From: Apostichopus japonicus | Taxonomy: Eukaryota > Echinodermata > Holothuroidea > Aspidochirotida > Stichopodidae | Length of the DNA stretch: 64,000 bases | NCBI RefSeq assembly: GCF_037975245.1 | Contig: NC_092571.1 | Location: 4,267,501-4,331,500, forward strand | Reading direction: 5' to 3' | Shown: positions 2,121 through 61,320 of the stretch, in pieces | Position numbering within the stretch: position 1 is the stretch's first letter | Layout: every line of letters starts with the position of its first letter | The notes under the pieces: generated by a model | Told to the model about the DNA's origin: nothing | Database searches by the model: none | What the model saw: only the letters and a program-made list of their open reading frames with translations | Made by a program: the position numbers and the translations under genes

Positions 2121-2164
2121 CATTGTGAACGTTGGCAATAGGATTTTCAACATATTGATTGTAA

Positions 2165-3668: not shown

Positions 3669-3887
3669 ATGAAAAAAGGAGGAGTTTTTCGTCTATCCAT
3701 TCTTGCATATCTTCCTATAGTAACTTTTAATAAACCTGTCCTAAAACTACGTTTGATACATAAACGATTATTGAATTTATTCAGTAAAACCCTGTTAGGT
3801 CACATTAATTACAAGAGACAACGTGTAATAATGACAGCTGAAGCTGTGTACGAAAAAATAAAAACCAATAGTCACCTGAATTTATAA
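3669..3887 (+). other. Small ORF kept open in both copies A and B
   Basis: A 72-codon frame rich in basic and hydrophobic residues. In copy B (51958-52179) it is 73 codons, with one in-frame 3-nt insertion and one substitution. I recognise no domain. The surrounding non-coding DNA is equally similar between copies, so conservation of the frame is weak evidence for a gene. It may be chance or an exon remnant. Confidence 0.15.
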
Positions 3888-5304
3888 TCATTTAATCGAC
3901 TATAAATAATGGAAAACTGCAACTCTGCTGAACGACATTATTCAACTGTTTAATGATATTTAATGGAAACCAGCACTTCAAAATTAAGTATATAACATGA
4001 CAAGATAATCACAGGAGGGAAAATGATAGCATTTATTATAATTACACCTTTAAAAACAGATTCAAATGGTAGAATAATACACTTGACGATAACAGGTGTT
4101 TTTGTTTTTGTTAATTGTGGCTGTATTTTCCTATATAATAGTTAAGGGTTTGTAAATGTTTTCATGGTTCTGGAAATATCATTTTTAATATTTCAGTAGG
4201 CTCTTTAGATAATCGTTTGGTGTTTCAATACTTTTTCGTTGTTATATAATCATATTTTGCTTTAAGGGACGTTTCTTGGTTTCGTCTGGCTAGCCATTAA
4301 CTTAAAAGAGACTTGAAATGATTGATCTTTCCTTAGGATAGTATGTACTCTGAGTATACTTAACGATACCAGATGTGCTATTACTTCTCCTCTCGTTCCT
4401 ATTGGTGTTTGGGATAATGTGATGTCGTGTTTTAGAGGTACTTTGTATACGGTTACAGTTGTCTCAAGCAAGTCTAAACAAAATTGTTTTTAGCTTTAGT
4501 TAGTCATAATTAGATATTTGGGTTTCATTTCATCACATTGCTTTGAACGGTTCTGGATGTAACGTTGCGGTATTTGTGTTTCAAAATTCTAATTCAAGTA
4601 GTGTATAAGCGGTCTGGATATATTGCTTGGTATTTTTCAATTTACATGCAATGCATCACAATGGTATTTAAATTAGATAATCTAATTGGAATACTTCATT
4701 TTAACACCCTTTTTACACAATTCTTGATTTACTGCATTGTGCAAAAGTCTAATTAAGTTTTCCAGTCACGGACTACTTTTTTTCAGATGATCAGTATGCA
4801 ATTGGATAGGTGTTCAGGTTACTCGGCGCAAGTCTCATCTGATATCCGCCAAATAGCACTTATTTGAAACATCTAAGAACACTCCGCTTTTCGCTTAACG
4901 AAAACATCCATAGTTTTTCCTGGAATAGTTACGGTGTTAAAGTAAACGTACGGTGCTTGGCATTCTTAATTTCAAATTCTGTGCGAAGATCTTCAGGATA
5001 TAAGCCAGACTACAACACCGTGATCGATTAATATACAAATAACAAGCATTCTGCTTGCTTTTGTTTTGTTACATATGATTTCATTGATCTGAAATTCACA
5101 AGTCATATTTCATAATTTTTACCAGGAATGCAACAATTTCAAGCAGGCACGTTTTTTTCAAAGTTCTACGCACTGTGTTTCGTCCATTGCAAGATAGTAA
5201 AAGAGACTAATAAATATAATGATTGAACTTGCTTCGTAATGAGTTATTTGACATTTAGGAAACCTCGACTTTAAGCCAGGTAATATAATTTACACAGAAT
5301 TGTT

Positions 5305-5510
5305 TCGGATGACTTCATTATCACATTGCCATAACAGGGGTTTAAAATGGGAGGGGTGTTCGGGAGGGGAAATGGGAGGTAGAGATATATTTCTGTTTTT
5401 AAAGTGTGAAGGGACAAACAACATGGTCGAATTTTAGTATCATATACCTCGATCATTACGATTTAGTAACTTGGAGAACAAACAAATCGATAAAACACAT
5501 AAAACGTTTA
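5305..5510 (-). repeat. Right arm of inverted repeat (copy A)
   Basis: Reverse complement of 1914-2120. At two spots (TGTTC in the G-rich block, and GTGTGAAGGG) it matches the left arm, whereas the right arms of copies B and C read ACTTC and GTAAGAATGG. Between those spots it keeps the right-arm-type sequence TTTCTG. Confidence 0.8.
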
Positions 5511-6860
5511 TCACTCGCAATGCAACATATTGTAAGTGGTCTCCAGACTTGTTCCGTTAGAGGGTATTGTATCCGGCAAAATGTTTGGTCAATGAGTCAC
5601 TCGACTGAATCTGTCATAGAACTTGGTTTGTTGCGTGGGTTGGTCTCTCTTGATCAACAGTCCTTCGACATGGTGGATTACGACTTTTTAATGAAAGTTC
5701 TCGAAAAGTTTGGACTTAACCCAAATGTTTGCATTGGATTTCTAGTTTATACACCAAAAGTTTGAGTTCTTTTTCTGTGGAGAAGGGGAACGTCAAGGAT
5801 GCCCTTTATCTCCACTGCTTTGTTTTATTTAGAGAGGCAATGTCATATGATTCATGAAGATGTTCGTTTCGTTCCTTTGGTGTTGCCGGGTAGTAAGAGT
5901 GTCCAATGAGTTCAATACGCAGATGATGTTACATGTATATCAAGTCGGCCCTCTTGCAAAGCCCTGTCTGAGAACCTGGTGGTGATTCAGAAAGTTACTT
6001 GGGCAAAGTTAAATCCTCTGAGGACAAACGGTCTTCGTCTTGATAGCTGGCGATTCAAGACTCTGTCTTTCAGTGCGTCATGGTCGGATCATGATATCCA
6101 AATCAATGTTATATGGTTTGGCTGTGACGCACCTGGTAATGTCACGTGGAAAGGGATGGCAAGCTTGTTTGAGCGCAGACTTGATAGCTTTTCTGAGCGC
6201 TGGTTGTCTCTTCTTGGAATGGTGATGGTCGTAAACCGTTTCGCGGCACCTGTTTCGTGGTACCCGAGCACGGCTTATGCCATCCATCGCAACGTATTAA
6301 CTAGACTTGAGAGGGTAATGTTTTACTTCATTTGGTCTGGTAAAACAGAACTTGTTAAAAGAATGGTTTTATATAAGATTTTCGTCACTGGGGATTCGGA
6401 TGTTGTTTATTTGCCCAGCAAACTATCTACTAAGGCTACTGTTCTTAGCAGTAGAAAATGAAAATTTGCCATATTTTTATTTTTTGCAGCTTTTGGGGTG
6501 GCTTACATGTGCGTCGTTTGGTTGCAAATATGTTACAGAACTCGGAACCACAACGTAGTACTCCATATCATGTTATTGTTAGCATTATTGAAACATTGTG
6601 TTACCAGAGTCTTCTGTGGATTTGTCTCGGCCTTCTAATATTCAGGAGATCATATTAGTAAAAGCTGTTTGACCGAGCTGTCCTCACAGAATCGTCATCT
6701 GCACATTGTAGCTTACATAATACAAGGCTTTTTCGGACATGATTACTGGTGACCGATCATTGTCAGTAGGGCAGAGTTTTGTATTTTACTGGGTTGATTC
6801 CTTGCTGATAGTTTACTTACTCTGTGTAGGGTTTGGTTTTGGATTCCGCTTAGCGCATTA
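5500..6860 (+). mobile_element. Decayed Tx1/L1-like LINE reverse transcriptase, copy A
   Basis: Remnant of a non-LTR retrotransposon pol gene. In order on the plus strand, through several frameshifts, it shows LQTCSVRGYCIRQN (about 5540), an RT motif A relic LDQQSFDMVDYDFL (about 5650), motif B RQGCPLSPLL (about 5790), motif C QYADDVT (about 5918) and the post-RT segment FYFIWSGKTELVKRM (about 6330). The GCPLSPLL and QYADD forms fit the Tx1/L1 side of LINEs. It shares a 3' tail with copies B and C (GGGTTTGGTTTTGGATTCCGCT near 6830). No intact ORF remains. In copy B the BEL element lies inside it. Confidence 0.8.
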
Positions 6861-7295
6861 CTTAAAAGCACCTGCAACAACATAGCAAAATGTTGACTTG
6901 TTTGTATCCGGGCCGTCAAATCAACGATATAACCGACGATGTCTGGTTAAAGAAAATAAAATACATAACAATTGTTGCATTTAGAAATAAATGGCAAACC
7001 GAGAGTTGAAAAGTTTAATAACATACGTGAATTCGTTTGTTGTTATGATTTTTAATGATGTACGTTGGAGAAACGGATACGCTGCACAAACGATGACCAC
7101 GTAAAAGAGCTAGCTTTGAAATGATGGCTTTCTACCTGGAATGTGTTGAAAAGAACCTCTTCAAAGAAAAATCCCTTTTTGTCCGATACAATTGTCAATC
7201 ACTTAATTGATCATAAAAAGAAGATAAAAACATAGTGTGCTTTGTTTCAATATTTAACATTGTTTGACCTTGTAGTAATAAGAAACAATCAGTGA

Positions 7296-7857
7296 ATGAG
7301 TTACCCTTTATAACTCTTATTGCATTATCATATTTGTGTATACACATCACTCCATCAACGCCCCCCCCCCCCTCCTAAAGGAAAATATGCATACTAGCAC
7401 TGCAATATCCAATGCTCAAATTGGGAAACCAAGAACAAGTTTTCTTTTGAGACAAAATGAGGTGAAATCATGCTAGTTGCTAATGTAGAAATCTTCCGAA
7501 TAAGAGTTTTCTTTCTTGTTAATATCTTAACAATTTTTTCCATTCGAAATAGCTTTGAGTTTGCCCCACAGAAATTCATTAAAAGTCACGGGCTTAGCCA
7601 GGATTTGCAAAGTTGTATGCACGACTATCTGATCGGAGCGCCACCATCGGTTGGCGCGGAGCGAACTAAAAAATTTTTGGTTTTACAAACCCCTCAGATA
7701 GCCGGAAACGGCCCTTCCCGAGTGTTCATTCTGGTTCCCTGGCCTCTTGCTAACTTGAGGCACCTCAATTTTTATGTAGAAAAAAGGCACATTTTTAACC
7801 TGAGGCAAAGTGGGGGGCACGTGCCCCCTGTGCCCCCCGGTTCCGCCACCCTTTGTC
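7296..7857. mobile_element. Right part of a GC-ended inverted-repeat element, copy A
   Basis: Corresponds to 60590-61140 of copy B, where the left terminus also survives. The right end reads GTGCCCCCCGGTTCCGCCACCC. The left end was removed by the deletion that joins 7292 to 7296. An internal short hairpin GCGCCACC...GGTTGGCGC lies at about 7638-7660. Confidence 0.5.
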
Positions 7858-8032
7858 CAGGTAAACAATTGACTAGTTAGAAAAACATTGATCGTGCAAA
7901 AAGCGTGGTAGCCCAGATGAACTGCGCTTACAGTGTTGTTACACGGAAATATTCGGGCACCATGATGCTAAATAAAGAAAATCATAGAATTGTCAGGCAA
8001 AAATTTGAAAAAGATTCGGACAAGCTACTGCA

Positions 8033-8033
<1 letters not shown>

Positions 8034-8079
<46 letters not shown>

Positions 8080-8303
8080 CCAGAGGACAAGAAATTCGGG
8101 CAAAAGTCCTGAAAAATTCGGGCAGCCTAAGAGGAGAAATTTTTTTTTATATATATATATTTTTTTCAAGAAATTCGGGCAAAAGTCATGAAAAATTCGG
8201 GCAGCCTAAGAGGAGAAAAAAAAAGATATATATATATTTTCTCCTCTTAGGCTGCCCGCATTTTTCAGGACTACTGCCCGAGTTTCTTGTCCTCTGGAAA
8301 TTT
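8034..8303. repeat. TA microsatellite and foldback repeat, copy A
   Basis: A (TA)n tract is followed by a ~63-bp unit starting TTTCCAGAGGACAAGAAATT (8077-8139), a second partial direct copy (8168-8219) and an inverted copy (8237-8303), all separated by short AT-rich tracts. The unit and its inverse can form a long hairpin. Copy B has one direct and one inverted unit around a longer (TA)n. Confidence 0.85.
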
Positions 8304-9619
8304 GGGGGGGCAGTGTGCCCCCTGCCCCCCCCCCCGCCTCGTACGCCGTTAAATAATGAATATGGCAGAATTGTAGTCTTGATATGTGATAATACAAAGA
8401 GAACAGACAAATTTGAGTCCAGTACTGTTTCTGTAGCTATTCCAGTATTTTTCAAGATATTAATCGTTAAATATACTTAATTTCTGGAATATTCGTTTAG
8501 GCTAACTTGATGGTGACGTCGGCCCCTCATTGCAGTTTTTATAGTTCATGTCGATCCGTTGTATTTGAGGTCAATCAAAATATGTTCGTTAAACTTCATA
8601 TTAGCAACAGAGCACCCTTGGATGGCATTCAACACCATTTGTCCCTAACAAATTTGTAAAAAATTATAAACATGTCATTTCAGACCATATATTCTTAATT
8701 TTTCCTATTAAGTTTTGTTCTAGTGCAACTGAGAAACTAGTCTGATGGGCTGTGTACTAAACAAAAAGGTTCAGTCACGTTAACAAATGAACCTCAACTG
8801 TTTAAAGGGTCATTCCACAAAACGAACAAAAAATAAGTAAATTTGCTATAGGAATACAAGCCTAGCAAGACTGAGAGCAGTGGTTTTTAACGGTCCACGG
8901 CATAGCAAAGTTTAAAAAAATCCTGGTTTATCAAAACACAATACGGGGTATTTTTTGTGAATCTTAAACAAAGTTCTTAAGAATCACTCAGTTTCCGAAA
9001 CTACCTACTATCCGGTATGATCATTTGCTACAACACTGTGGCTAAGAATGGGAACATATTGACACTGGTCTACTTTGGTTTTCCTGCAAAAGTGATATAG
9101 ATTGAATTCTTTGTATATTAAAATGTTATCTCATGGTCTTGCTGGCTTGTTTGTCTCTGGCATTGCAACGAATATCATTATTGTTTCAGTGATATAGGTT
9201 GTGTAAATCTTTGCCAACACATTTATGTCAAACAATGAGTTTAATTAAGTTCATGCAAACCCTTGTGAACCGCATGACTGTTTAAATATTTTGCTTGGCT
9301 AACCACAAATAACCCATTACAACAAAATTGATTCCACCTTCAGAGTGACAAGTGACAAAAAAAGCGGCTTTTAAGGAATTCGATGGCGCTAGTTTGAAAC
9401 AGGGTGTTTTAAATATAACATAAATATATGGCTCTTAAAGGCATCCGTAAATTCACTTTTAGGAGAATAGCGCCTCATCAGGCCACGTATTTAGTGGACG
9501 GTGGCTGCAAACATGCCGGTCGCAGAGAGTGTCTCCACCTCTGGCCAAAGGCAAGGATTCACGCACGCCACCTAGTACGCTTCTGGTCGATTTGACCGAC
9601 ACTCTGCGCATCCTCCCGG

Positions 9620-9623
<4 letters not shown>

Positions 9624-9654
<31 letters not shown>

Positions 9655-10451
9655 TTTCACTTTATTCAACCAAAATCAAAATGTACAGATAAAACAAGTG
9701 CACTTAGTGCACTTTTTGACAAGTACTAAACAGAATTTAGTAAAATAATAATCCAAACAGTTAATGCAGAACAAAGGAAGTATATATTAAGACTTTAGAA
9801 ATGAAAAACAAAACCTTAAGAGACATTTGTCTTGAGATTAATATGAAGTTTGTCTTTTTTAATTTTAACAAAAGACGTTCCGGACGTCCAAAGTTTACTG
9901 AACTGATGTTTTGTAAGACGACTGAAGTCTGCTTCTACTCGGGTTTTAATTTCCTTTGCAATAATCGAGAGAAGAGCAGTCCCAGTTTGGGCTTGGTCTT
10001 CAAAAATATGAAGGCACCTTGACTTCCAAATAGCAAATTTCGTAATACAAAAGATAAACCAAATTCTGTTGAAAACTATCTGTGGAAAGTCGACACAAGG
10101 GAATCCAAACAAATACAGTTTCATGTTAAATGAGCTGTTATCACCAGCTAATCTGTGAAAAATTTTCTCTACCCAAATCAAAACTGTCTTGGCTTTTGGG
10201 CATTCCCAGAAAATGTGAGAAATGGTCTCAATTTCGTTACACTGCTCGCAAGGACAAATACCGTCACCCATTCCCCAGTCCTTTATCCTTTTACCGGTGT
10301 ACAAAATGTGATGTGCTAGACGCCATTGAAAATCCATTAATTTGTTGCCTAGCATGTTACTAAAGGCCAGCTTCCAGATGGTCTCCCAAGGGAAAGCTGG
10401 GTAATCTCTAACAGCAATTAAGTTGGCACCACTGGGTTGAAGGGATTTAGT
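9624..10451 (-). mobile_element. 5'-truncated LINE insertion with zf-RVT C-terminus
   Basis: A minus-strand LINE 3' end with a poly(A) tail (27 T on the plus strand, 9624-9650). The frame is open from about 10445 to the stop at 9816. It shows FQWRLAHHILYTGKRI, WGMGDG and CPCEQCNEIETISHIFWECP, which is the zinc-binding RT C-terminal domain (zf-RVT) of Tx1/L1-like elements, then a tryptophan-rich tail. The 14-bp target ATCCTCCCGGGTTC flanks it (9610-9623 and 10452-10465). The uninterrupted site is seen in copy B at about 62850-62872. No upstream RT is present, so this is a dead-on-arrival insertion. Confidence 0.93.
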
Positions 10452-10504
10452 ATCCTCCCGGGTTCCGGGTTAGAATCCTCCCGGGTTAGAATCCTCCCGG
10501 GTTC
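10452..10504 (+). repeat. Triplicated target sequence beside LINE insertion
   Basis: The target ATCCTCCCGGGTT occurs three times in tandem (10452, 10475, 10491), linked by short TAGA-containing spacers. Copy B has it once. The expansion is therefore tied to the LINE insertion or to slippage afterwards. Confidence 0.85.
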
Positions 10505-10762
10505 TTTTGCGACAACAAGTGAGACATGGTACGGGATCCTAGGCCACAAAAAAGCACCATGCCACAGCCAGAGGTATTATCGCCAGAGGCCTGTCTTGAA
10601 CCCTAGCCACGATTTACACGACCGACGAGGAATGAGTCTTTCGTCACCCTCTTAACAGCATCGGCCATCACATCAGCTAAGAAATCATATGGTTGAATTA
10701 ATATATCAAGACTTCAGCGTCGACTACTGAAAGAGAAAAAGAAATTTTGAACATGTATAACC

Positions 10763-10835
10763 AACCATTGATGGAGACGAACTCAGTTCACCAGGTTACC
10801 AGTCCACTGCTGTACCCTCTGAGCCATTTGACAGG
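10763..10835 (-). mobile_element. tRNA-derived SINE-like head, copy A
   Basis: On the minus strand it reads as a degenerate tRNA 5' region: an A-box-like TGGCTCAGAGGGTACAGCAG and a B-box-like GAGTTCGTCTCC about 35 nt later. Acceptor and T stems do not pair properly, so it is not a working tRNA gene. Copy B holds the same at 63118-63189. Confidence 0.45.
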
Positions 10836-11372
10836 TTAAGTTTTAGCGAGCTTAAATTGGTATTATTGGTTGGATACAATCATTTGGTAACAGTGAATAA
10901 CACTGCCTTCAACCAAAATCTCTATTCATCCTGTCTTACTCCAATTTAGAACAACGGATCTGAATATCTTTATTAACAAGAAGCTCACGCTTCAATGTCT
11001 TTGTCTACGTTGCAGCAAGCAGTAAGAATGTCGCTTCCTTCAAGACGTAAATATACAATAGGCTTATGCCCCGATACTATCGATGACTTCGAAGCAAGCA
11101 TGTGAAAGAAAAACGTATTCCGTGAAATCTTCTTATTCACAAAAGGTTGCTCAAGATTATGCTCGCAAGAGAGGTCTTGCTGTAAGTTGTCTCCCTTTAC
11201 AACTATATTCTATGCATGCGATCGTGAACTGGGATTAAGCCTGATATTTCGACAAACAATACGTATTCATATTTTAAGACCTTTTTGAATTAGGAAGGGA
11301 CAATACTTATTAAGTCAAACACGTTAAGTACATGTGACTAATCTTATTTAGGGATCTGAATGGCTGGAAATA

Positions 11373-12344: not shown

Positions 12345-13299
12345 CATGTTACGTCATAGATAGGGTAGTTGCGCTTACTTTCGTTGGATAGACAAAGCTG
12401 TATGTTATAGTTTAAATGTATAGATATAAATACAAAGTACACATTATATACATATATCAGTGCAAAGCGTAAAGATATTGACGTTGGGTAATAGCTAAGG
12501 TCGTTGCGCTTACTTTTCGTTGAACAGACAACGCTCTGTGTCTAATAGTTTTAATGTATACATATTAATGCACGTAAACAGTGTATAAACTTACATCCGT
12601 GCATTAAAGCGTTATACAAAAGCGCATAGATACTTTGGTTGCGTCATAGATAGGGTAGTTGCGCTTACTTTTTGTTGAACAAACAACGCTGTATGATATA
12701 GTTTAAATGTATAGATAGAAATGCATGGCAAACAGTGTATACATACATCCGGGCATTTAAGCGTTATACCAAAGCGCCTAGATACTTTGATAGCGTCATA
12801 AATAAGGTAGATACGCTTACTTTTCGTTGGATAGACAAAGCTGTGTATGTTATAGTTTAAATGTATAGATATAAATACAAAGTACACATTATATACATAT
12901 ATCCGTGCAAAGCGTAAAGATATTGACGTTGCGTAATAGCTAAGGTCGTTGCGCTTACTTTTCGTTGAAGGAGACAACGCTCTGTGTCTTATAGTTTTAA
13001 TGTATACATATTAATGCACGTAAACAGTGTATATACTTACATCCGTGCATTAAAGCGTTATACAAAAACGCATATAGATACTTTGGTTGCGTCATAGATA
13101 GGGTAATTGCGCTTACTTTTTGTTGGATAGACAAAGCTGTATGTTATAGTTTACAGATATAGATATAAATACAAAGTATACACATTGTATACATATATCC
13201 GTGCAAAGCGCATATATATTTTGTTTGCGTCATAGCTAAGGTCGTCGCTCTTACTTTTCGTTAGACAAACAACGCTGTATGTTATAGTTAAAATGTATA
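12345..13299 (+). repeat. Tandem satellite, left block
   Basis: Array of ~150-bp monomers. Each contains a version of TAGATACTTTGGTTGCGTCA, then GGTAGTTGCGCTTACTTTT, GACAAAGCTGTATGTTATAG, AACAGTGTATACATACATCC and GCGTTATAC. Monomers vary by substitution and small indels. The block ends abruptly at the left terminus of the CACTG element and resumes at 20986. Confidence 0.93.
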
Positions 13300-13769
13300 C
13301 ACTGTAAAAAAAAATCGTAAACGTTTCCTTGAAAATGGTTTAAAGTTGCTGCAACCAAAAGTCGGGTTTCCTCAGATTAATCCATAAGATGTTAACCGTA
13401 TCTTGGTCAAACGTTCATCCTGTTTTGCGTGTTTCATCATTATTGAGTTGCTGCAACCGAAAACGATGTTTTCTCCTTAAAAACGCAAGTGTTTCCTGAA
13501 ATATTACCACTTTTGGAGTTACCTTCAACGGATTCAGTTTTAGTCTTCCTAATTTAGAATTTAGAGATTATCTTTCAATTATCTGTTCAGAATACTATTG
13601 ACACAGTACATATATTTGCTTGGAACATTATGTATATGTATAGATGGAATTATCTGCCTTTTAAGATTGATGTACAGAATAATAACAATGAAAAGTAAGA
13701 GCTGTGAGACTGAAAATGATACAAACTTGATTTTAAAGTAAGAAATATTTATTAAAACCCAATAAATAA

Positions 13770-14830
13770 TACCATGCAAAGATAATTAATGAAAATTTAA
13801 AAATGTACAGTTAAGTATTGTATATGTATCACTAAAGATAACAACACATGAAACAAGCACCTATATGTGGTGAAGGATGGGCTGCTTTTACAAGTGAAAC
13901 TTTGAGAGTGAGTTTGAAACTGACAAAATTGGTCTCCAATACTTTTCTCCTTATTTTAACTCCGACCACCTTTAGCTCTAACACCCATCTTATTTACATG
14001 ACTGAGTAAAATCGTTCCAATGACATCATTTCATGCCTTGGCAGTGTCAGAATAAAGGGACTGTTAGCATTACACCTCTCACCCATAAAGAACAAAACGA
14101 ATTCAAACAAGTTAAAAATAATCAACTACAAATTATAAAGATAAGAAGAGATAAATCAATTTCAATTTAATAATATACAAACATTCATGTCTAGTATTAT
14201 TTAAAATAAAAATACAACATGAAAAATCCCTTAAAATGAGGTGTAGGATGCGGTGACCGTACAATCAAGAATTTTAAAAGAGCTTCTTGATTATAACATT
14301 GATTCATCTCAGGTCACCTTATCACAACCAAATCTCACATCTTAACACCTACTATAGCACGTCATGCCTAACCAACAATTTTTTTCTTATTCACCCAAGA
14401 CTACATGTATACAAACAGTATCATTTGAAGCAAGAACAAACAATCAATTACAATTAATACATTCACAAAGATTATGTGTTAAGCATTATTTAAATTAATA
14501 CACAAAATGATAAAGCTCCATATAGGGTGGAGGGTGGGAATGACAATACCACCGAACACCTTCTAAATACCACCTGTCTACTCGCAACAATTTTCCTAGT
14601 TTAACCAAGAGTATACCTTCTCCCCATAGACAAAATAGGTGTATATAACAAAGTTTCAAATGAAGCAAGAACAATCAATTACAATTTAAATATATACAAA
14701 TATTATATGTTACCATTATTTGAAATAATTAATCTCAACACCACATAGCATCCCATGTGTACCGTCAGTCGAACGATATTCCTAGTGATCCAAGAGTGAA
14801 ACCCCTGCCCCAGATTTAAAAGAATAGATG
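13770..14830. repeat. Degenerate internal tandem repeats of the CACTG element
   Basis: AT-rich blocks recur with a spacing of roughly 230-330 bp. Shared pieces include CAATTACAATT followed by ATACAAA, then TTATTT with flanking A/T, and, between them, a stretch like CTCACATCTTAACACC. No coding potential is seen. It lies downstream of the element's gene, so it could include 3' UTR; a TTTATT (minus-strand AATAAA) occurs at 14857-14862. Confidence 0.5.
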
Positions 14831-15256
14831 TTGATCATGTCACCCTACCTAAAAGGTTTATTAAACCACAGTGCAGTAAATTCTTGTTTTCTCATCAACT
14901 ATTATAATTAAATTATTATATGATAACTTTGCAATTAAAGGGCTTTTCCCATGGAGAAATATATTTTCAACAAAATACAAAATTGCTACCCTCTCCCCCC
15001 TCAAAAAATGTTTTAAAATTTCATTTTCAATGCATTACTTTTTTATCAGTAACTCCCAACCTAATGAACGATGCTGAATCTACACCAGGCCTAGCAAAGA
15101 ATTCCAAATCTTTAAAACAACATGCGGTTAGATTGTGCTTCCAAGCTTTCGTATAGTCGCTTTTACATGCTAATTTTCTTTCCTGCTATCGTATAGTAGC
15201 TGTGCCGGATTCGCTTAATGTTGCATGTCCATGTGAGACCGCTTGGGGTTAATCAT

Positions 15257-18200
15257 CTATTGGCTAGCGACTTTTGTTACAAAGGTTACCAACTTAGCTG
15301 GTACCTTTTTATTGTCAGTGATTTCAAATATCTCCTTTTGTACATATGTAAATGTACAGTTACATGATCTCGGGTATTCAATATTGACACAATAAAACAT
15401 ACTGATGAGATGAATGAGACTGTCCACAGAATCACCTTCCTTGACCACTTGGGACTCAGCAGCAATGGCACATGTACTTTCACTGATTATAGTTTTTGGG
15501 GTTGACACTGACTCTGCAATCTTTTGAAATTCGTTTGAAGTCTGAAATGAGTAAAAAACAATACATACAAAATGTCATAATGCAACGGGTTTATAATGAC
15601 AGGATAAGACATATCTTTCTCTTTGCAGTGCATTACATTTGGTCCATGCGTGGACAATTGTCCTTCCCATACCCTATATGTGGGCATCCCTATATGACTT
15701 GGTGCTTCTATGGTACGTTTTACCCATAGTAAGAGGATATACAAGCAACTAAATTTAATCATAAAATGGTATGTAGTTCTTGTTGTCATGCTGGAAGACT
15801 ATAAATAAAGAATACACAAGAAAGGTTATGTTTTACACACAAGCGCTTTAAGTCCTTGAGGAGTTGACTACAATGGATGCAATAAGTATATTGTAATCTT
15901 TGATAACAACAGGAGCAACACATTGGCTACAGTTGCAAAACATAAATCTCTGAAATATTACCTGCTAACTCATCTCACTGTAAGGAATATGATGAGAGAC
16001 TGTAAATTCAATTCTGAATCCATTAATGCATTATACTTAATTTCACTGTATAACTACAAGCATGACATGACACTTGACATGACACACGTCAGAGGCAGGT
16101 TCTGTAGAAAGTGGTGGGTGGCCAAAAGAGCACCGAAGACTTGCCTGTTATCTATGTCCTGTGAGTCTTCTGCCAGAATTTTGAAAGTAAAGAAGCCCAT
16201 GTTACATGCAATTTCCTGGATACTGACTCATAATCATAATCAGGATAATGAAATTTAAGGATTTTCATCAGCATGTGAAGGTGGAAGGGGCTTCAGATGG
16301 TTAATCCTACCTTGAATCTACACCTGCATAAGATATGCTATTTTACTCAGAACATGAAAACAGGTGATACCAAACATGCCATGATCACAAATATTTTTTT
16401 CCAACTTTGATCTTACATTTGTGTAGGAAACAAAGTCTTCTTCATTTTCTCGTAGCAGCAGTGGTAGCAACTGTAATCCTGCTTTATTCTGTTCCTCTGT
16501 TCTGTCTTCCTCAGAGCTTCTAATATTCCTGGAATAATAACAATGGTGAAGAACACAATATGATAGTTTGCATCATGCATAGTTTTACGTTTGATACACG
16601 ATTCATGATTTTAAGAAGGGTAAAAAATGTCATAAGTAGATGCAATGAACATAGCAGCAGGTAGGCCCACGAAATAAAAAAATGTGGTCTTTGCCTTTGT
16701 AACGTTTTGGATTTCCTCAATCGCAACAAAAAAGGACATTTTTGCACCCTTAGGGGACTAATATTTCATGTAAGGGATGATAGGTTTTTTGAAAGGTACT
16801 AGATCTGTTTGTGATTTAGAAGATAAAAATGAACGCAAAAGAACACTCTATTACGCATTCCTATTTATTTACCTTTGAACGGTTTCTGTGGCGGGTATAG
16901 TCTGTCCACACTGGAGTGGGGATCGTTGGGAGCGTAAAGCTTTTGAAGGGGCGTAAGGCTTAACACCCAAGCCTCCTGTTAGGTCTACAACACTGGTAGA
17001 GATTAAACTGACTGAAATTCAAGTTGAAGACTTACCTGTCACACCTGTGTAGAATTTCTTTGATCTTGTCATGTTTAGGACCACTCTTGACACTCTTGAG
17101 GTAGCATCTTCCCAGTAAGGTGATACTTTTGGCCAATCTAGGAAACTTTGATACTTTCTTGGTACAATCAATGTTCACCAAACGAGTCATCTCATTGCTA
17201 ATTTCTTCTGTTAGCAGAAGAGCAGGATACTCTTGGAGTAAGTCTTTAACAAGTGGTTTATTGGTTAAATATGCCCTTCGTTGTGGATATGTTTTATCCA
17301 TAAGTTTCTAGATCAAAATCAAGTTTTTGGCCCCTTTCTTAGACATCTCCTTTTTCATGGTTTCTTTATGTCTTTTCAGAGAGGTATCATCTTCAGTGGA
17401 TGGTATCACTGGCAGGAAATTTAATTTCCCTTTGCAGGGCCTCTTGAAAACATCCTTTTGTAGAATGCTCTCTTTTCTTTTAAGAGGCGCATATTTTAAT
17501 GAGAGACTTGAATCTTTCATCCTCAGTGATTTCAATTTATTGTTAAGGGCCGCAGTCCAAGCATCATAACCTGAGCCAATGCGCTCCCTTAAGTAAGGAT
17601 ATTTTGTTATTAGCTGTTTACCTATTCTCCTTTTCATGTGCATATCTGGGTACTTGTTTTTTTTGGTACAGAAAGTCTCCAAGATGATTGAGTAGTTCAT
17701 GTTTTTGGGCCCACTGTAGTTGTTCTTCATTTTCAAGCTTGTTCTGCAAAGTCATGCTAAACTTGATACAAAGTAACTGAATGTCCCAACTATTATCATC
17801 AGAACTGCCAACTTTTTCAGTTACACTAATCATTTTGTTTGATTCTTCAGTGGTCTCTTGTTTGGTATTTGGAACATCTTCAATCACACCTGCACAAAGT
17901 TCTGGTGGAGTCATATCTATTCCAAAATCAAGTGATCCAACTGTAAGCTCAATGGAAGCTTTATCACTCTCATCATCAGACACACAAGAACTAGATGCAC
18001 TAGTTGCAGAACAATTAAATTTGAGTTTGTCAGTTCCTATCAAGGGCTCTAAAGGTTGAAGAGTGCTAAGTTTAATCTTGCTCTTGTCTAAAATTTTGGT
18101 TCCAAGCTCAAGGTCAACCCATGACTTAAAATCCTCATCAAAGTACTGGAAAAATGTTTCTTCTGATGAAAATGGAACACTCATCATTATGCAGAGAGTA

Positions 18201-18340
18201 TTGTATAATGACTCAGTGAACAGTGTATCTTCATTTTCTAGTTCAATTACTTTCCTAGAATGACCATACTCAACAAGAATTTTCATGGTGGTGGGTAATG
18301 TTGATAACACTTAAAATGGTGGTAGTTTGAGCTTCAACAC
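15257..18340 (-). pseudogene. PB1-like / SAMD3-like spliced gene carried by the CACTG element
   Basis: Three coding exons fit GT-AG rules and reading phase: 18340-17036 (ATG at 18284-18286, context CCACCATG), 16528-16417 and 15541-15257 (stop). The start MKILVEYGHSRKVIELENED and FFQYFDEDFKSWVDL resemble a PB1-type domain. An acidic/serine-rich linker follows, then a YP....G.....W...L region, then MDKTYPQRRAYL, and finally a C-terminal block SLIHLISMFYCVNIEYPR. This order resembles multi-copy animal proteins often labelled sterile-alpha-motif-3-like, a family I place from memory. It is broken by a frameshift in an 8-A run (17657-17664) and an in-frame TAG (17308-17310), while all splice junctions remain in phase. 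Biochemical role unknown. Confidence 0.7.
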
Positions 18341-19435
18341 CTGTTTTGGGAAACAAAATAAAACACCAAATTTTGAAATATACCTTGGCAAACTGACACC
18401 TCATGAAAGAAATACCAGCAGAAAGTCAATTCTATGATAAACATCAGCATTCCCCTATCAAGTTATTGCTTATTGTTACAAAATTATTTGAAGCCACACC
18501 CCCTCATTAATTAATATGCTAATATATCAAATTTAACAGACATCATCACACTAACATGTTTACTTAACTACACGATACCAACTTTCACTAGAATGGGACC
18601 TGTGGTTTTCGAGTAGGCTAATAAAATGTATAGTTTTCAGGTTTGACCCAGTGACCTCATTAATATTCATGATATAACTACCAAAACAATAATGTTCTTG
18701 CACTCACTAAACATAATGCATGTACATAGTGAATGTGATGAACATCAGGCATTCCCTAGTTGAGTAATCCTGACCCTTAGCTAGGCGTCACAAGGGTACA
18801 TATACATTTATCCAAACACCCACAAATCTGGAAGCATAGTTTCCTTTTGCTTTCAGCAGCAAGGAACCCCAAAGTTGTAATCATAAGCCTTATTTACTTT
18901 TAAGCCTCCATCCACATTTTCTAAATTTTGAAAACAGGAGGACCTGCTTTCTTTGTACATTTTCATTACAGTACTAGCCTTGACCTAGTTATATATGCAC
19001 AACTACCTTTTGTTCACAAAAGTCTAACCATATAACACCAAAATTAAGAGGGAGTATGTGTTTACTCTAACGTGATATTTAAGTGATATTAAAGGCTACA
19101 CTTAGGCCTGCTTTATTTTAGGAATAGATTGATTAGCCTAACGTTTGTAATTGTATTATAATGTACTCTCATCGTAGTAAGCTAGCTACAGTATACGTTT
19201 CATTGTGTCGCATATATCCTAACAAATAACATAGGGGGTTAGTATACGGGCTAAGATACTACAGATGCTGTACGCTCCTGCAAGCCTAACCATCTCCACC
19301 GCATCAGCGAACCCGACGTGACGAAGTCTACCACGAAAATACAGAATTTATCAAATACTTTGAAAGAAATGCGATTCCCTTTTGTTGAGCATATCCTACT
19401 GTATCATGAAAGAGCTAGGTTACTTGTTTTAATCG
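18341..19435. other. Upstream part of the CACTG element; no ORF
   Basis: Probably an intron in the 5' UTR of the element's gene: a good acceptor (pyrimidine tract then AAACAG) lies at 18341, and a possible donor (ACGAG/GTAAAT on the minus strand) near 20567, beyond the nested hAT. A CpG-richer patch (about 20580-20625) may be the first, non-coding exon or promoter. This is inference from splice-site-like sequence. Confidence 0.35.
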
Positions 19436-19443
19436 GTGCACAC

Positions 19444-20537
19444 CAGGCTTGGGGTAATCGTAATCAGTAATCGTTATCGATTACAATCGATTACATTTTT
19501 TGAAGTAATCGTAATCGTAATCGATTACTTTTGTGAAAATTACCAAGTAATCGTAATCGTAATCGATTACAAGGGCAAAGTAATCGTAATCGTATTACAT
19601 TTATGATTACAGTGAAATTTGAATGAGAAGGGCAAAATTAGTAGAAATGATTAAAACTAATTCTTACTATTGGCTTTTAGTGTGACCAAAGAAGTGTTCC
19701 TGCTTCTAGAATTCTCTGGCACAATAGACATTTCAATGTTCATTAGTAAAACGTTAATTGTACTCATCTCATGTTGTGGGGAAAAAAGTTATTCAGAAAT
19801 TTGCCTACATTCCATTGTCCAATAACCCATCCAACTTTGCACCATTTACACCTCTTTAATTTATGTAATTAACCTTGTTGCTGAAAAAATCACTGCAAAT
19901 TAAGTATTTTGGTGGATCAGAATTTGCTTTACCAGAGTTGACCACTTTTTGATGAAAATAATTTACTTTTACTTTGGCCTTCCATGTCCCATGTACTGTG
20001 GAATGCCCCATTTCAAAGCTGTTTAGTTTTATTTTGGTGTTATACTGTAATGTAAAAGAGTTTTTAGTGTTGCTGCTATGCAGAAATTATTAGTTTACAA
20101 AATATAGTGTTGCATGAAAATCTTCATTTGTTTTACTTTAGTATTTGTCTGTTTACTCTTTGTCTGTTTAAATTGTATTTTGTACTGGACTTATGGGTTA
20201 CACATCTTAAACGTGTTAAGGCATAAATGTGTAATGCCTGGTAGGAATTGTAGATATACTTCCACAATTTTGTCCATATATACTGTAAATGCCCTTCCTT
20301 TGCCCTATTTCATTGCCCAATTTCCCGGCAGAGAGTTATATTAAACAGATTTGCAGAGGATTGTGCAAGTAACCACAATGTAATCATGATTGTAATCACG
20401 ATTACATTACAATGTAATCGTAATCGTAATCGATTACTCCAACTTTAGGCTGTAATCGTAATCGCAATCGTAATCATACATTCTCAAGTAATCGTAATCG
20501 TAATCGATTACATTCAGATGTAATCGCCCCAAGCCTG
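19444..20537. mobile_element. Non-autonomous hAT element nested in the CACTG element
   Basis: Perfect ends CAGGCTTGGGG...CCCCAAGCCTG and an 8-bp target duplication GTGCACAC (19436-19443, 20538-20545), which matches the hAT preference nTnnnnAn. Both subterminal regions are packed with GTAATCGTAATCGATTAC units in both orientations, as expected for transposase-binding clusters. The 1,094-bp interior has no transposase frame. Confidence 0.93.
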
Positions 20538-20987
20538 GTGCACACTGTTTAAAATTCAAGAAATTTACCTCGTTGGTAACCAAGTTTGGTGCGAATGTGG
20601 CCGTTGGCGTGTATGTCGCGATCGATGGGTTAACGAAAACCGGGTTTACGTATTCTAGCGTGTGTTAACATTAATCGTATGTGCGCTTTTGTCAACACCA
20701 AAAAAAGCTTGCAGAGATAAACATTACCTGTTGGACAGAGTAACAGTAACTTTCCGGATAATCCGGTAAAACGTTTATCCGTATATTCAGTAATAGAAAA
20801 GCGTTCTGATAGATTTTCGTTCAACCAGCTGAAGTTTTCCTTTCTTACCCGTAAAAAAGAGCAAACCTTGCGCTCGACGGTGGTTTTAGAATAATCGAAT
20901 TGTGATCTAAACTGAGAAAAATCCTCTCCCTCTGTAAACAATAATCCAAATCAAGACAAACGTTAACGATTTTTTTTTTACAGTGTA

Positions 20988-21718: not shown

Positions 21719-24700
21719 CGGAAGACATCAGTGGCGTGTTGTCAGCATCATCTTTCTTCGGAAATTTGCTTGTTTTTTGCTCATTTTAGTGAACACATCC
21801 TGTCACGTTTACTCTATTATCAAGATTTATTGTTTCTGTCAACGGATCTAGTGTTTAAAACAGTTTGGATTTATTATTTGTAGTGATTTAGTCGTGTGCA
21901 TTTTTCAAATTTCAACTTTTCTGACCTATCAGTCATATTTTAGCAGCCTATACGATAGCCTACCACAGGAGTGAATATTTCTTGTCTATTTTGGATTCAT
22001 TCTCTTTATTGGAATGCGTAAAAACGAACAGATTATTAAAGTCGGTACTCTTAACTGTCGTGGGATTTCCAAAGAAGAAAAACAACTTGAATTAATTGAA
22101 GACATCACAAGATACAACCTTGACATCACCGCTGTGCAAGAAACAAAGATTAGAGGTCCAGAAGAGGTCAAACTACCAAGGTCAGATCAATCCAATTCAT
22201 ATACATTTTTTAAAGCAGCTTGTAGCAATACATATCACGGTGTAGGTTTCTTTGTTAAGAGAAGAATTGATTGTGTTTTTAAAACCATATCTGATCGCCT
22301 TGCTCTGTTGACCATTTATAGAACTTATAATAATAAAGTCCACCCACTACATATTATTAATGCTTATGCCCCTACATCAGCAATAACTTATAAGAATCCA
22401 GTAGAAACCGAACAATTTTACCAAAATCTTGAAGATCTACTAAATAGTGTCAATAAAAAGGAAGTCATTATATGTGGTGATTTCAATGCAAAAGTTGGCT
22501 CATCAAATCCTTTCTTTCCTAAACATATTGGAAAATACACCACTGGAAATACTAATACTAATGGTGATTTCTTAACAGACCTAATTGTACGTAACGATCT
22601 ATACTTATGTAATACTTTCTACAAACACAAACTTGAGCATATCAACACTTATACGAGTAACTTTATACCCAATAATCACAGAAACCCTATCAGGAGCCAA
22701 ATTGACTATATCATAGCCCCATTAAACTTCAAAATTATTAATATTGATGCTCGAGCTTATAATGGCCTTCATATTAACACTGATCACAAAATCATTATAA
22801 GTAGTTTTACCCTGAATAGCTCAACAAGAAGACAAATTTATCCAGTCAATAAGACTGTTGAAAGTAGTAATTCCTGCCATCTTCAATCAAACAAAATTGA
22901 CTATAATGAAAACGTATTTAACACATTAAACGAAACCAATTTTTCCCAATCCCCAGCTACGTATTGGAAGGAACTGTCAACAGTTTGTTTAAACAATGCC
23001 CGAAACTTAAATCCACCAACAAAAAAAGTACGTTTTAATAATACTAAAATAGCAAGCTTATCCAAGAAACAAAAAGACCTAAGACTACAGATTGACAACT
23101 GTAAAGATATTGATCAGAAGAGAAATTTAAAAACTAAAAGGAACAAAATAATTAAACAACAACATTTTCTAGTCAAAACTGCCCATGAACAAAAATTAAT
23201 TGACGAAATTTCCGAAATTGAAAATTGTAAGGATGACTCCCATCGTTTCTTTAAAGCAATAAGAGTAGTACAACAAAAGAGTAAGAGAGACCCTATTACA
23301 ATTAAAATTGGCGATAAACATATAGGAGATACCGACGCAAAAAAAAAAAAAAAAAAAATTAAAGAAATCAGCAAACATTTCGAAAAGACTTTTAACTGCA
23401 ATATTCCAGACCCCAAACCAAACGTGTTTCCAGAGAAACTAAACACGCCCTTTGATGAAGATGAAATTGCACAAGCAGTCTCCTCCTTAAAAAATAATAA
23501 AACCCCAGGTTGTGACAAGGTCACAGCCGAACATCTCAAATATGCCCCATGCACACACAAACACATAGCAAATATCTTAAATAGTATAGCCGAATCAGGA
23601 GATTTCCCAATTGAAATTAAACAAGGAATCCTAACTCCTATCCAAAAACCGGGAAAGACTAAAGGTCCACCAGAAAACTTAAGACCAGTAATTTTATTAT
23701 CAACACTGAGGAAAATTCTTGCGGTTTGTGTGGCCAGGAGGATTCGTCCGTCAATTGATGAGCATATCCTCCCCATTACCCAAACTGCCTACACTTCAGG
23801 ACGTTGCACAGCTGAACTTGTCTTCGCTTTTAAAGTGCTAGCAGAAAAAGCTATAACATCCATAGGTTACACTATAAATCTATTGATGCTAGATATGAGC
23901 AAGGCGTTCGACACAATTCAAAGAGGATCCTTGCTAACTGACCTAGAACAGGTTCTTGACAACGACGAACTTCACCTGATATCACTACTAATCGATAACG
24001 TCTCCTACACCGTCAAATTAGAGGGCAAACTAGGACTTCCTTTTAACACTAACATTGGTTCACCACAAGGAGATAGTGCAAGTGCACTATTTTTTATAAC
24101 TTATCTAGCCAACTCTATGAAATCAGATGATAATGATATCGATGCAGTTATCCTGCCATCGCAGTTAGTTGATCATGATTACAGCACTACCACCACTAAT
24201 TCTTTTTTCACAGTAGACCAACAATACGCTGATGATATCTCTTGGGCATCAACTGGTCAGCATATACTGCAAGACATCGAAAAACGAGTCTCTGACAAAC
24301 TGGCAGTAAGAAATCTGAAAATCAATTGCACAAAAACTGAGAAATTTACAATCACAAGAAAAGGAAATGACAGTTGGAAAAAATGTAAATATGTTGGAAG
24401 CTTGCTGGGGACCGAAGAAGACATTAACAGAAGAATTGGTATAACCAACGGTGCTTTCAACACACTGTCAAGCATTTTTAAAAGCAAAAACATCAGCCGG
24501 AAAATTAAGCTTAGGATCTTTGAGACTTTATTAAAGAGTATTTTTTTGTACAATTGCGAACTGTGGGGCACAACGAAGGATCTTGATCGCAAAATTGACA
24601 CTTTTCAAAGGAGACTACTTCGAAATATTCTCAACATTAGATGGACCAATAATAATTGGTTATCAAATGATGAGCTCTACAACGAAACCAACCAAACACC

Positions 24701-24979
24701 TTGGTCATCGATAGTCGCACATAGAAGATTGAGATTTTTCGGTCATGTAGCAAGACTCCAAGAGGACGCTCCAGCAAAGGTTGCTTTAAGAGAAGCACTG
24801 AGACATACTGCTAAACCAGTTGGAAGGCCCGTGACTACATTGCTTGGAAAAATAAAATCGCAATTCAAGGACATTAATATTAACAATTTCGAAGAAGCAA
24901 TAAACCTTGCGCAAGATCGTGATACGTGGCGGAGGTTAATCACTGAGCATGTCGGATAGACGAGACTCAACTTACTACT
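21719..24979 (+). mobile_element. Full-length RTE-like non-LTR retrotransposon
   Basis: A 3,261-bp insertion inside a satellite monomer, flanked by the 9-bp duplication ATAGATACT (21710-21718 and 24980-24988). It has a ~295-nt 5' UTR, one 981-codon ORF (22014-24959) and a 3' UTR of only 20 nt ending CTTACTACT. One ORF, endonuclease plus RT, length near 3.3 kb, a minimal 3' UTR and a short repetitive rather than poly(A) tail are typical of RTE-type LINEs; the exact clade is not proven. There is no visible 5' truncation. Confidence 0.9.
22014..24959 (+). CDS. Endonuclease-reverse transcriptase of RTE-like LINE, intact
   Basis: A single 981-aa frame. The N-terminus is an apurinic-type endonuclease: TLNCRG with Asn14, QETKI with Glu43, NAYAP, GDFNAKVG (about residue 154), SQIDYI and NTDHK. 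The RT core follows: LRPVILLSTLRKIL, motif A LDMSKAFD (about 626), motif B GSPQGDSAS, motif C QYADDISW (about 738). The C-terminal part has YNCELWGTT, FQRRLLRNILNIRW and LRFFGHVARLQ, a typical post-RT region of such elements, with no RNase H. All expected catalytic residues are present, so it could encode active enzyme for target-primed integration. A 20-A run (23339-23358, coding for six Lys) is a likely slippage site. The chosen ATG is the first of the frame. Confidence 0.95.
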   Translation: MRKNEQIIKVGTLNCRGISKEEKQLELIEDITRYNLDITAVQETKIRGPEEVKLPRSDQSNSYTFFKAACSNTYHGVGFFVKRRIDCVFKTISDRLALLTIYRTYNNKVHPLHIINAYAPTSAITYKNPVETEQFYQNLEDLLNSVNKKEVIICGDFNAKVGSSNPFFPKHIGKYTTGNTNTNGDFLTDLIVRNDLYLCNTFYKHKLEHINTYTSNFIPNNHRNPIRSQIDYIIAPLNFKIINIDARAYNGLHINTDHKIIISSFTLNSSTRRQIYPVNKTVESSNSCHLQSNKIDYNENVFNTLNETNFSQSPATYWKELSTVCLNNARNLNPPTKKVRFNNTKIASLSKKQKDLRLQIDNCKDIDQKRNLKTKRNKIIKQQHFLVKTAHEQKLIDEISEIENCKDDSHRFFKAIRVVQQKSKRDPITIKIGDKHIGDTDAKKKKKKIKEISKHFEKTFNCNIPDPKPNVFPEKLNTPFDEDEIAQAVSSLKNNKTPGCDKVTAEHLKYAPCTHKHIANILNSIAESGDFPIEIKQGILTPIQKPGKTKGPPENLRPVILLSTLRKILAVCVARRIRPSIDEHILPITQTAYTSGRCTAELVFAFKVLAEKAITSIGYTINLLMLDMSKAFDTIQRGSLLTDLEQVLDNDELHLISLLIDNVSYTVKLEGKLGLPFNTNIGSPQGDSASALFFITYLANSMKSDDNDIDAVILPSQLVDHDYSTTTTNSFFTVDQQYADDISWASTGQHILQDIEKRVSDKLAVRNLKINCTKTEKFTITRKGNDSWKKCKYVGSLLGTEEDINRRIGITNGAFNTLSSIFKSKNISRKIKLRIFETLLKSIFLYNCELWGTTKDLDRKIDTFQRRLLRNILNIRWTNNNWLSNDELYNETNQTPWSSIVAHRRLRFFGHVARLQEDAPAKVALREALRHTAKPVGRPVTTLLGKIKSQFKDININNFEEAINLAQDRDTWRRLITEHVG

Positions 24980-27726
24980 ATAGATACTTTGGGTGCGTCA
25001 TAGTTGGGGTAGTTGCGCTTACTTTTCGTTAGATAGACAAAGCTGTATGTTATAGTTTACAGATATAGATATAAATACAAAGTATACACATTGTATACAT
25101 ATATCCGTGCAAAGCGCATATATATTTTGTTTGCATCATAGCTAAGGTCGTCGCTCTTACTTTTCGTTGGACAGACAACGCTGTGTGTCTAATAGTTTAA
25201 ATGTATACCTTAAAATGCATGGTAAACAGTGCATACATACATCCGGGCGTTCAAGCGTTATACCAAAGCGCATAGATACTTTGGTTGCGTCATAGCTAAG
25301 ATCGTCAGGCTTACTTTTCGTTGGACAGACAACGCTGTGTGTTAGAGTTTAAATGTATAGATATAAATGCACGGTAAACAGTGTTTACATGTATCCGGAC
25401 ATTAAAGCGTTATACCAAAGCGCCTAGATACTTTGGTTGAGTCATAGTTAGGGTATAGTTGCGCTTACTTTTAATTAGATAGCCAAAGCTGTACGTTATA
25501 TAAATACACGTTAAACAGTGTATACATACATCCGGGCATTTAGGCGTTATACCAAAGCGCCTAGATACTTTGATTGCGTCATAAATAAGGTCGTCGCGCT
25601 TACTTTTCGTTGGACAGACAAAGCTGTATGTTACAGTTTCAATGTATAGATATACATGCACGTAAACAGTGTATACATACATCCGTGCATCAAAGCGTTA
25701 TTCAAAAAGGCATAGATACTTTGGTTGCGTCATAGATAGGGTAGTTGCGCTTACTTTTTGTTGGATAGACAAAGCTGTATGATATAGTTTTAATGTATAG
25801 ATAGAAATGCACGGTAAACAGTGTATACATGCATCCGGACATTAAAGCGTTATACCAAAGCGCATAGATACTTTGATTGCGTCATAGTTGGGGTAGTTGC
25901 GCTTACTTTTCGTTAGATAGACAAAGCTGTATGTTATTGTTTAAAGATATAGATATATACAAAGTATACACATTGTATACATATATCCGTGCAAAGCGCA
26001 TATATATTTTGTTTGCATCATAGCTAAGGTCGTCGCGCTTACTTTTCGTTGGACAAACAACGCTGAATGTTATAGTTTAAATGTATAGATATACTTGCAT
26101 GTAAACAGTATATACATACAGCCGTGCACTAAGCCGTTATACAAAAATGTATAGATATAAATGCACGCAAACAGTGTAAATACTTACATCCGTGCGTTCA
26201 AGCTTTATACAAAAGCGCATAGATACTTTGGTTGTATCATATATAGGGTAGTTGCCCTTACTTTTTGTTGGACAGACAAAACTCTATGTTATAGTTTAAA
26301 TGTATAGATATAAATGAACGTTAAACAGTGTTTACATGCATCCGGACGTTAAAGAGTTATACCAAAGCGCATAGATACTTTGGTTGAGTCATAGTTAGGG
26401 TATAGTTGCGCTTACTTTTAATTAGATAGCCAAAGCTGTACGTTATATAAATACACGTTAAACAGTGTATACATACATCCGGGCATTTAGGCGTTATACC
26501 AAAGCGCGATACTTTGATTGCGTCATAAATAAGGTCGTCGCGCTTACTTTTCGTTGGACAGACAAAGCTGTATGTTACAGTTTCAATGTATAGATATACA
26601 TGCACGTAAACAGTGTATACATACATCCGTGCATCAAAGCGTTATTCAAAAAGGCATAGATACTTTGGTTGCGTCATAGATAGGGTAGTTGCGCTTACTT
26701 TTTGTTGGATAGACAAGCTGTATGATATAGTTTTAATGTATAGATAGAAATGCACGGTAAACAGTGTATACATGCATCCGGACATTAAAGCGTTATACCA
26801 AAGCGCATAGATACTTTGATTGCGTCATAGTTGGGGTAGTTGCGCTTACTTTTCGTTAGATAGACAAAGCTGTATGTTATTGTTTAAAGATATAGATATA
26901 TACAAAGTATACACATTGTATACATATATCCGTGCAAAGCGCATATATATTTTGTTTGCATCATAGCTAAGGTCGTCGCGCTTACTTTTCGTTGGACAAA
27001 CAACGCTGAATGTTATAGTTTAAATGTATAGATATACTTGCATGTAAACAGTATATACATACAGCCGTGCACTAAGCCGTTATACAAAAATGTATAGATA
27101 TAAATGCACGCAAACAGTGTAAATACTTACATCCGTGCGTTCAAGCTTCATACAAAAGCGCATAGATACTTTGGTTGTATCATATATAGGGTAGTTGCCC
27201 TTACTTTTTGTTGGACAGACAAAACTCTATGTTATAGTTTAAATGTATAGATATAAATGAACGTTAAACAGTGTTTACATGCATCCGGACGTTAAAGAGT
27301 TATACCAAAGCGCATAGATACTTTGGATGTGTCATTGTTGGGGTAGTTGCGCTTACTTTTCGTTAGATAGGCAAAGCTGTATGTTATAGTTTAAAGGTAT
27401 AGATATAAATACAAAGTATACACATTGTATACATATGTCCGTGCAAAGCGCATATATATTTGTATGCGTCATAGCTTAGGTCGTCACGCTTACTTTTCGT
27501 TGGACAGACAACGCTGTGTGTTAATGTTTAAATGTATAGATATAAATGCCCGTTAACAGTGTTTACATACAGCCGTGATATAAAGCGTTATACAAAAAGG
27601 CATAGATACTTTGATTGCGTCATAGATAGGGTAGTTGCGCTTACTTTTTGTTGGATAGACAACGCTGTATGTTATAGTAAAAATGTATAGATATACATGC
27701 ACGGTAAACAGTGAATATAGTAAACA

Positions 27727-48190: not shown

Positions 48191-48216
48191 TGATATTCAT
48201 GGGGCATCTAACTTAC

Positions 48217-56144: not shown

Positions 56145-56149
56145 GTCTC

Positions 56150-59561: not shown

Positions 59562-59562
59562 C

Positions 59563-61319: not shown

Positions 61320-61320
<1 letters not shown>

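Follow-up and report, generated by a model that had tools for sequence, protein, structure and literature searches.

A CACTG-ended element of Apostichopus japonicus as a probable internal-deletion derivative of a two-gene CMC-like transposon

How does a mobile element of several kilobases come to carry a spliced, host-like gene and no transposase of its own? The question is raised by a locus in the holothurian Apostichopus japonicus, within a stretch of 64,000 nucleotides (contig NC_092571.1, positions 4,267,501 to 4,331,500; assembly GCF_037975245.1) that we call the window and in which positions are counted here. An earlier reading made without database searches, hereafter the sequence-only reading, had described a CACTG-ended element whose gene was either mobilised as cargo or an unrecognised transposon component. 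Our results favor a component, as relatives carry both this gene and a transposase and the linkage of the two is recurrent, and they disfavor cargo. We consider it highly probable that the window feature is non-autonomous and arose by internal deletion from a CMC(T)-type DNA transposon with two genes, a pair that recurs in the genome. The gene is called SAMD3-like, and its N terminus PB1-like, after what we take to be motif resemblances, and the label is used as a name only.

The element occupies positions 13300-20985 (~7.7 kb) as a precise insertion into a ~152-bp satellite, with inverted ends beginning CACTGT and a duplicated TA. Its left end, CACTGTAAAAAAAAATCGTAAACGTTT, and the reverse complement of its right end, CACTGTAAAAAAAAAATCGTTAACGTTT, differ by one mismatch and one 1-base gap, and both read inward as CACTGTAAAAAAAAA(A)TCGT[A/T]AACGTTT. 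An 18-base pattern of these ends, allowing up to three mismatches, matched twice in the whole window, at the two element ends only (100 shuffles of the window gave a mean of 0.09 matches, and one shuffle reached 2). When the flanks were joined with a single TA, they matched two satellite paralogues over 320 bp, at 94.7% identity for the first and 94.4% for the second (Table 1). For the 120-bp core, a 2-bp duplication gave the best score (208, aligned gap-free), against 197, 203, and 201 for duplications of 0, 3, and 4 bp. The inverted ends, the TA duplication, and the two empty sites thus bear out the boundaries proposed by the sequence-only reading. Inverted-repeat termini of the form CA..TG and a target duplication within 2-5 bp, here 2 bp, are also features by which CMC and CMCT elements are recognized. 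CACTA elements are expected to have subterminal repeats, and these are not supported here, as the best motif in the element was present in four copies, inside the range of 3-6 given by 30 shuffles. No second CACTG/TA element was found in the window, and Rfam and transfer RNA scans of the window gave no match.

The element belongs to a multicopy family. In the 671.6-Mb assembly (35 contigs), there were 40 match rows for its left 1,001 bp, including 15 of near full length (89-100% identity), and 32 for its right 426 bp, 14 of them complete; a genome-wide search with the end pattern, a check that the sequence-only reading had proposed, returned 23 matches, against none for the reversed control. 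We read through 17 copies, including that of the window, and 15 had both ends, which argues that the two termini do not come from different elements; the other two (L025 and L027) are each damaged at one end. Flanks were TA/TA in 14 of the 15 copies with both ends and TG/TG in one (L009). L010 lies in a TA repeat, so the length of its duplication is ambiguous. Family members range from 2.2 to 14.5 kb. The most recently spread form comprises L010 and six copies that are ~99% identical to it over ~6 kb, an identity from which we take the spread of this short form to be recent; these seven differ mainly by a 324-bp repeated unit (four copies) and an 8.1-kb insertion (one copy). The 324-bp unit, near the left end, is single in L010 and present as two to four tandem copies in L020, L021, L024, and L022. 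Additionally, the similarity of twelve loci (including C8:31917287, C16:7062799, and C1:718731) to the element is confined to ~70 bp of its right subterminal region (86-92% identity), and these are perhaps another non-autonomous family.

The sole gene seen in the window copy is encoded on the minus strand. It has three predicted coding exons and, near the right end, a likely 5' untranslated region (UTR) exon. In this respect the single multi-exon gene of the sequence-only reading stands, but two lesions disrupt this copy of it, a frameshift close to the T run at 17656-17663 and an in-frame stop at 17308-17310. The longest open frame in the element has 230 codons, compared with a mean of 107 and a maximum of 224 in 300 dinucleotide-Markov sequences. 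No transposase emerged from six-frame Pfam scans of the window element, and no family reached its cut-off with the gene product, which leaves the PB1 and SAM domain labels without profile support. The best sub-threshold matches of gene pieces, to Dynamin_M (expectation value [E] 0.0058) and XRN1_D1 (E 0.03), look like chance, and a sequence search of PDB with the N-terminal half gave chance-level matches only. The motif pattern that we presume to be typical of SAMD3-like proteins (a DSYG stretch, WP-LF, and HF--L-GI) is visible in divergent copies (L043 and L045). Viral contigs gave no match to any of three pieces of the gene, to the end pattern, or to the transposase described below, and prokaryote genomes gave none to the end pattern or to the single gene piece used there.

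That the element has no recognisable transposase therefore holds for the window copy but not for its full-length relatives. Two copies of ~10.5 kb, one formed by L012 and L013 (C2:8080357-8090836) and one by L018 and L019 (C17:28775071-28785851), encode a putative DDE transposase and, downstream on the same strand, the spliced SAMD3-like gene, which is the combination that the sequence-only reading had suggested looking for. Relative to the window sequence, they hold an extra ~3.3 kb, 99.2% alike between the two, at a breakpoint (18433/18434) judged by eye. Both copies have the transposase frame open over 885 codons (883 when counted from the first Met); the two frames are 99.3% alike and lie just upstream of the SAMD3-like gene. 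Residues, numbered from L012:2369, include four C2H2-like fingers at the N terminus (residue 5 to ~135) and, by pattern and inspection, the layout D360, D453, C475-x2-C478, H681-x3-H685, and E705. The order D-D-C(2)C-H(3-4)H-E that marks CMC and CMCT transposases is thus found, in the full-length copies only, and these residues are the probable catalytic ones. In Pfam, the transposase matched DUF4218 alone, and below threshold (E 0.014, 15.7 bits against a cut-off of 27), and a PDB sequence search gave chance-level matches only. All three SAMD3-like exons are free of stops in L012, and L018 has one stop, in exon 1. Six further copies (L029-L034) retain 3' transposase remnants beside remnants of the SAMD3-like gene, so the absence of a transposase elsewhere points to loss, and the window copy, whose relatives keep the frame or its remnants, is best read as a deletion. 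An older family (L038 and L039) with ~70% DNA identity shows a left end, a SAMD3-like fragment, and a degenerate transposase in the same order; as these two are 96.7% alike including their flanks, we count them as one insertion later duplicated.

The arrangement extends well beyond this family. A search with the full transposase, covering the best 51 of 496 candidates, gave 78 rows. Dropping 27 short second-fragment rows left 51 loci, made up of the two intact copies, a single fragment at 82%, and 48 divergent transposases at 30-36% identity. For the SAMD3-like gene, the C-terminal half of exon 1 served as the query (135 matches, E up to 1). A SAMD3-like match lay downstream, on the same strand and within 12 kb, for 33 of the 48 divergent transposases, and upstream or on the other strand for none. 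Random placement of the SAMD3-like matches gave a mean of 0.09 linked cases and a maximum of 2 in 2,000 trials, with contig sizes known for 14 contigs and 30 Mb assumed for the rest. Within groups, the distance between the two genes is nearly constant (4089-4094 bp in 13 cases; 5004 and 5006; 3192 twice; 3824 and 3828), and the linked loci form about ten groups by spacing and identity, with copies inside a group not being independent. A shorter transposase query gave 150 rows (the best 150 of 314 candidates); once the intact pair and the seven rows belonging to the window family had been removed, 50 of the 141 remaining divergent loci showed this linkage, with no case of any other arrangement, these loci overlapping those of the full query. 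Seen from the other gene, 50 of the 101 SAMD3-like loci outside the window family have a transposase upstream among the listed matches. As the same pair recurs with transposases that differ by 64-70%, we take the SAMD3-like gene to belong to the transposon, probably as a conserved second gene within a CMC (EnSpm/Mirage/Chapaev)-like group in this genome.

Selection on the gene was compared between long, transposase-bearing forms and short forms through the ratio of nonsynonymous to synonymous change (dN/dS). For exon 1, long versus short forms gave a dN/dS of 0.27 (13 synonymous and 14 nonsynonymous differences, P = 0.0011), and single long/short pairs gave 0.25-0.49. Pairs of short copies ranged from 0.17 to 3.0, many on few changes. 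These values, from small numbers and from copies that share history, fit a gene that may be under constraint in the mobile lineage.

It is also important to weigh what speaks against a conserved second gene. Neither the transposase nor the SAMD3-like protein reaches a Pfam family at cut-off, and many of the linked SAMD3-like matches have E between 0.01 and 1 when taken alone, their position being what makes them credible. No SAMD3-like match lay within 12 kb of 15 of the 48 and 91 of the 141 divergent transposases, where the gene may be absent. Similarly, 51 of the 101 outside-family SAMD3-like loci have no transposase upstream among the listed matches, a number that falls to 49 since two are L038 and L039, where reading the copies does show one. 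The unlinked loci could be explained by the use of a single divergent query and the scoring of the best 51 of 496 and 150 of 314 candidates, and some of the 51 could be host-locus copies. Constraint does not contrast sharply between forms either: relative to their majority, the short forms show 19.5 synonymous and 48.5 other changes, below the ratio of ~1 to 3.9 expected without selection, and are for that reason not clearly neutral. No pair shows significant constraint over the first 205 codons, where L042 has dN/dS values of 1.1-4.6. Finally, the seven most recent copies have no transposase and a frameshifted SAMD3-like gene, from which it follows that neither product is needed in cis.

Several of these points would be expected if the gene were captured cargo, with a CMC-like element having taken up a whole host SAMD3-like gene in the manner of Pack-type elements and the gene having no part in transposition. 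The gene is spliced and host-like, recent copies hold it in a broken state, and its first 205 codons lack significant constraint. However, one recent capture would not give the same order and strand beside transposases that are 30-36% identical, with no other arrangement in either search, and the dN/dS of 0.27 between long and short forms also runs counter to a passenger; we regard capture as improbable. A Pack-type gene-capture element shows no recurrent association of its gene, and here the gene recurs beside divergent transposases. An ordinary host gene family, in or around which a transposon inserted repeatedly, would account for the 51 outside loci lacking a listed transposase. For the window family, though, 33 of the 34 match rows to the N-terminal half of the gene lie inside copies that keep one or both element ends (the lone exception, C15:4303791, was seen as a 710-base piece without flanks), and in the read-through copies that retain the gene it sits between paired termini. 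The sequence-only reading had named gene copies in host loci without such ends as counterevidence; none appear in the window family by this count, and some of the outside loci may be such copies. Termini, N-terminal matches, and copy anatomy together refute a host gene family for the window family, and we give this explanation almost no weight. A placement in Tc1/mariner or in some other superfamily that targets TA, the CACTG ends being coincidental, is just as hard to credit. It gains from the TA flanks of 14 of the 15 copies with both ends, but one copy (L009) duplicates TG, and Tc1/mariner elements target TA strictly.

The main rival concerns function rather than origin. The SAMD3-like gene might be a conserved accessory gene that acts on the host, for instance against silencing or DNA methylation, like the TET/JBP dioxygenase genes that are reported to travel with many lineages of fungal DNA transposons, among them EnSpm and ESTA (PMC12730594). 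The linkage data fit this equally well, but no Pfam domain was found in the SAMD3-like protein, and we hold it to be possible though rather unlikely.

The most likely role of the SAMD3-like product, by analogy, is that of an accessory protein comparable to TnpA, the second protein of maize En/Spm. The transposase would excise and insert the element, mostly at TA, and a promoter near the right end would drive both genes. The 5' UTR exon might be shared by alternative splicing, as in En/Spm, between the transposase and the SAMD3-like gene. It could join either frame because, in L012, the 176 bases between the frames contain no AATAAA or ATTAAA and the SAMD3-like exon retains its acceptor. The accessory protein may then bind the ends, assist synapsis, oligomerize, or relieve silencing. 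The window copy and the recent ~6-kb copies would presumably be mobilized in trans by proteins of the full-length copies.

Table 1. Features of the element, its target site, and related sites in the window
Feature	Position	Strand	Basis
Left copy of TA target-site duplication	13298..13299		Empty-site comparison; copies read through
Left terminal inverted repeat (CACTGT...)	13300..13326	+	End alignment; genome-wide end pattern
Coding exon 3 and stop, SAMD3-like gene	15257..15541	-	Splice consensus; counterparts elsewhere in the family at 78-96% identity, some bearing stops or shifts
Coding exon 2, SAMD3-like gene	16417..16528	-	Splice consensus; matched in other copies
Exon 1 (ATG 18286), SAMD3-like gene	17036..18340	-	Splice consensus; open exon 1 in L012
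Site of extra ~3.3 kb in L012 and L018, absent from window copy	18433..18434		Breakpoint by eye
Nested hAT-like non-autonomous insertion (presumed), including duplications	19436..20545		8-bp duplication; ends
Probable 5' UTR exon	20728..20957	-	Donor CAACAG/GTAATG after 20728; predicted from sequence
Right terminal inverted repeat	20958..20985	-	End alignment; genome-wide end pattern
Right copy of TA target-site duplication	20986..20987		Empty-site comparison; copies read through
Paralogous empty site, satellite	25929..26246		Alignment with joined flanks
Second paralogous empty site, satellite	26872..27189		Alignment with joined flanks

Intron 1 of the gene holds a nested insertion (19444-20537) flanked by the 8-bp duplication GTGCACAC (19436-19443 and 20538-20545), which we take to be hAT-like from its duplication length and ends. 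The satellite that houses the element also contains an open frame of 994 amino acids from a non-long-terminal-repeat retrotransposon, with endonuclease and reverse transcriptase (21975-24959). On either side of the satellite, positions 1-11372 and 48816-63726 form collinear blocks, mostly 93-98% identical with differing insertions, which are a large segmental duplication. Two related open frames (33695-34171, minus strand; 54564-55286, plus strand), about 98% identical in DNA, presumably resemble BEL/Pao gag, and a further open frame (48197-48745, minus strand) has what we assume to be the look of an exon from an immunoglobulin-like secreted or membrane protein.

Multicopy SAMD3-like proteins of animals are annotated as host genes. 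We lean slightly toward the broader view that the animal SAMD3-like family with a PB1-like N terminus goes back to accessory genes of CMC-like transposons, and that many "host" copies are transposon genes or domesticated remnants. If animal CMC-like elements do carry a second, conserved protein, the understanding of their transposition machinery would change, and the numbers of the family would be explained by its spread within transposons. Animal gene counts may also include a transposon accessory family that repeat libraries leave unmasked. No literature linking a SAMD3-like gene to a DNA transposon was found in a search outside of which lay most subscription journals and Repbase reports, and such a link may have been described elsewhere.

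Among known systems, En/Spm shares with the present elements the coding of a transposase together with a second protein; the same strand and order are seen here, and shared transcription would be a further likeness. En/Spm makes a 3-bp target duplication, in contrast to 2 bp here, and is familiar for its internal-deletion derivatives and for the role of TnpA, which is not known as a SAMD3-like protein. Its TnpA and TnpD come from a single transcription unit by alternative splicing (PMC1636069). Animal TRC elements such as SmTRC1 share the 2-bp duplication and an animal host, but their ends begin CCC (PMC1636069, PMC4298943), and no SAMD3-like gene is reported in the accessible parts of PMC1636069. 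The fungal ESTA group, placed within CMCT, is related and has TA duplications, but the accessory gene discussed in Kojima 2025 (PMC12730594) is the TET/JBP dioxygenase, with a proposed role against host silencing. The same paper reports for CMCT transposases and RAG1 the D-D-C(2)C-H-H-E order found here, and it groups CMC transposons with Transib, from which RAG1 arose.

Two elements of Cryptococcus neoformans are also comparable. CNIRT6, of the CACTA type, is ~7.5 kb long with 24-bp CACTG ends and a CMC-type transposase, but it makes 3-bp duplications, and no second gene is described for it in the accessible text (PMC12810828). CNEST, a member of the CMC supergroup that falls in a clade with unclassified animal transposases, resembles our element in its length of ~7.2 kb, short inverted ends, 2-bp TA duplications, and CMC-type DDE transposase; it differs in its 33-bp ends with CACGG in place of CACTG, and the same text describes no SAMD3-like second gene (PMC12810828). 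Compared by description, CNEST is the nearest described element in anatomy. Taken together, the distinctive result here is that, within one genome, divergent CMC-like transposases repeatedly occur in the same two-gene arrangement.

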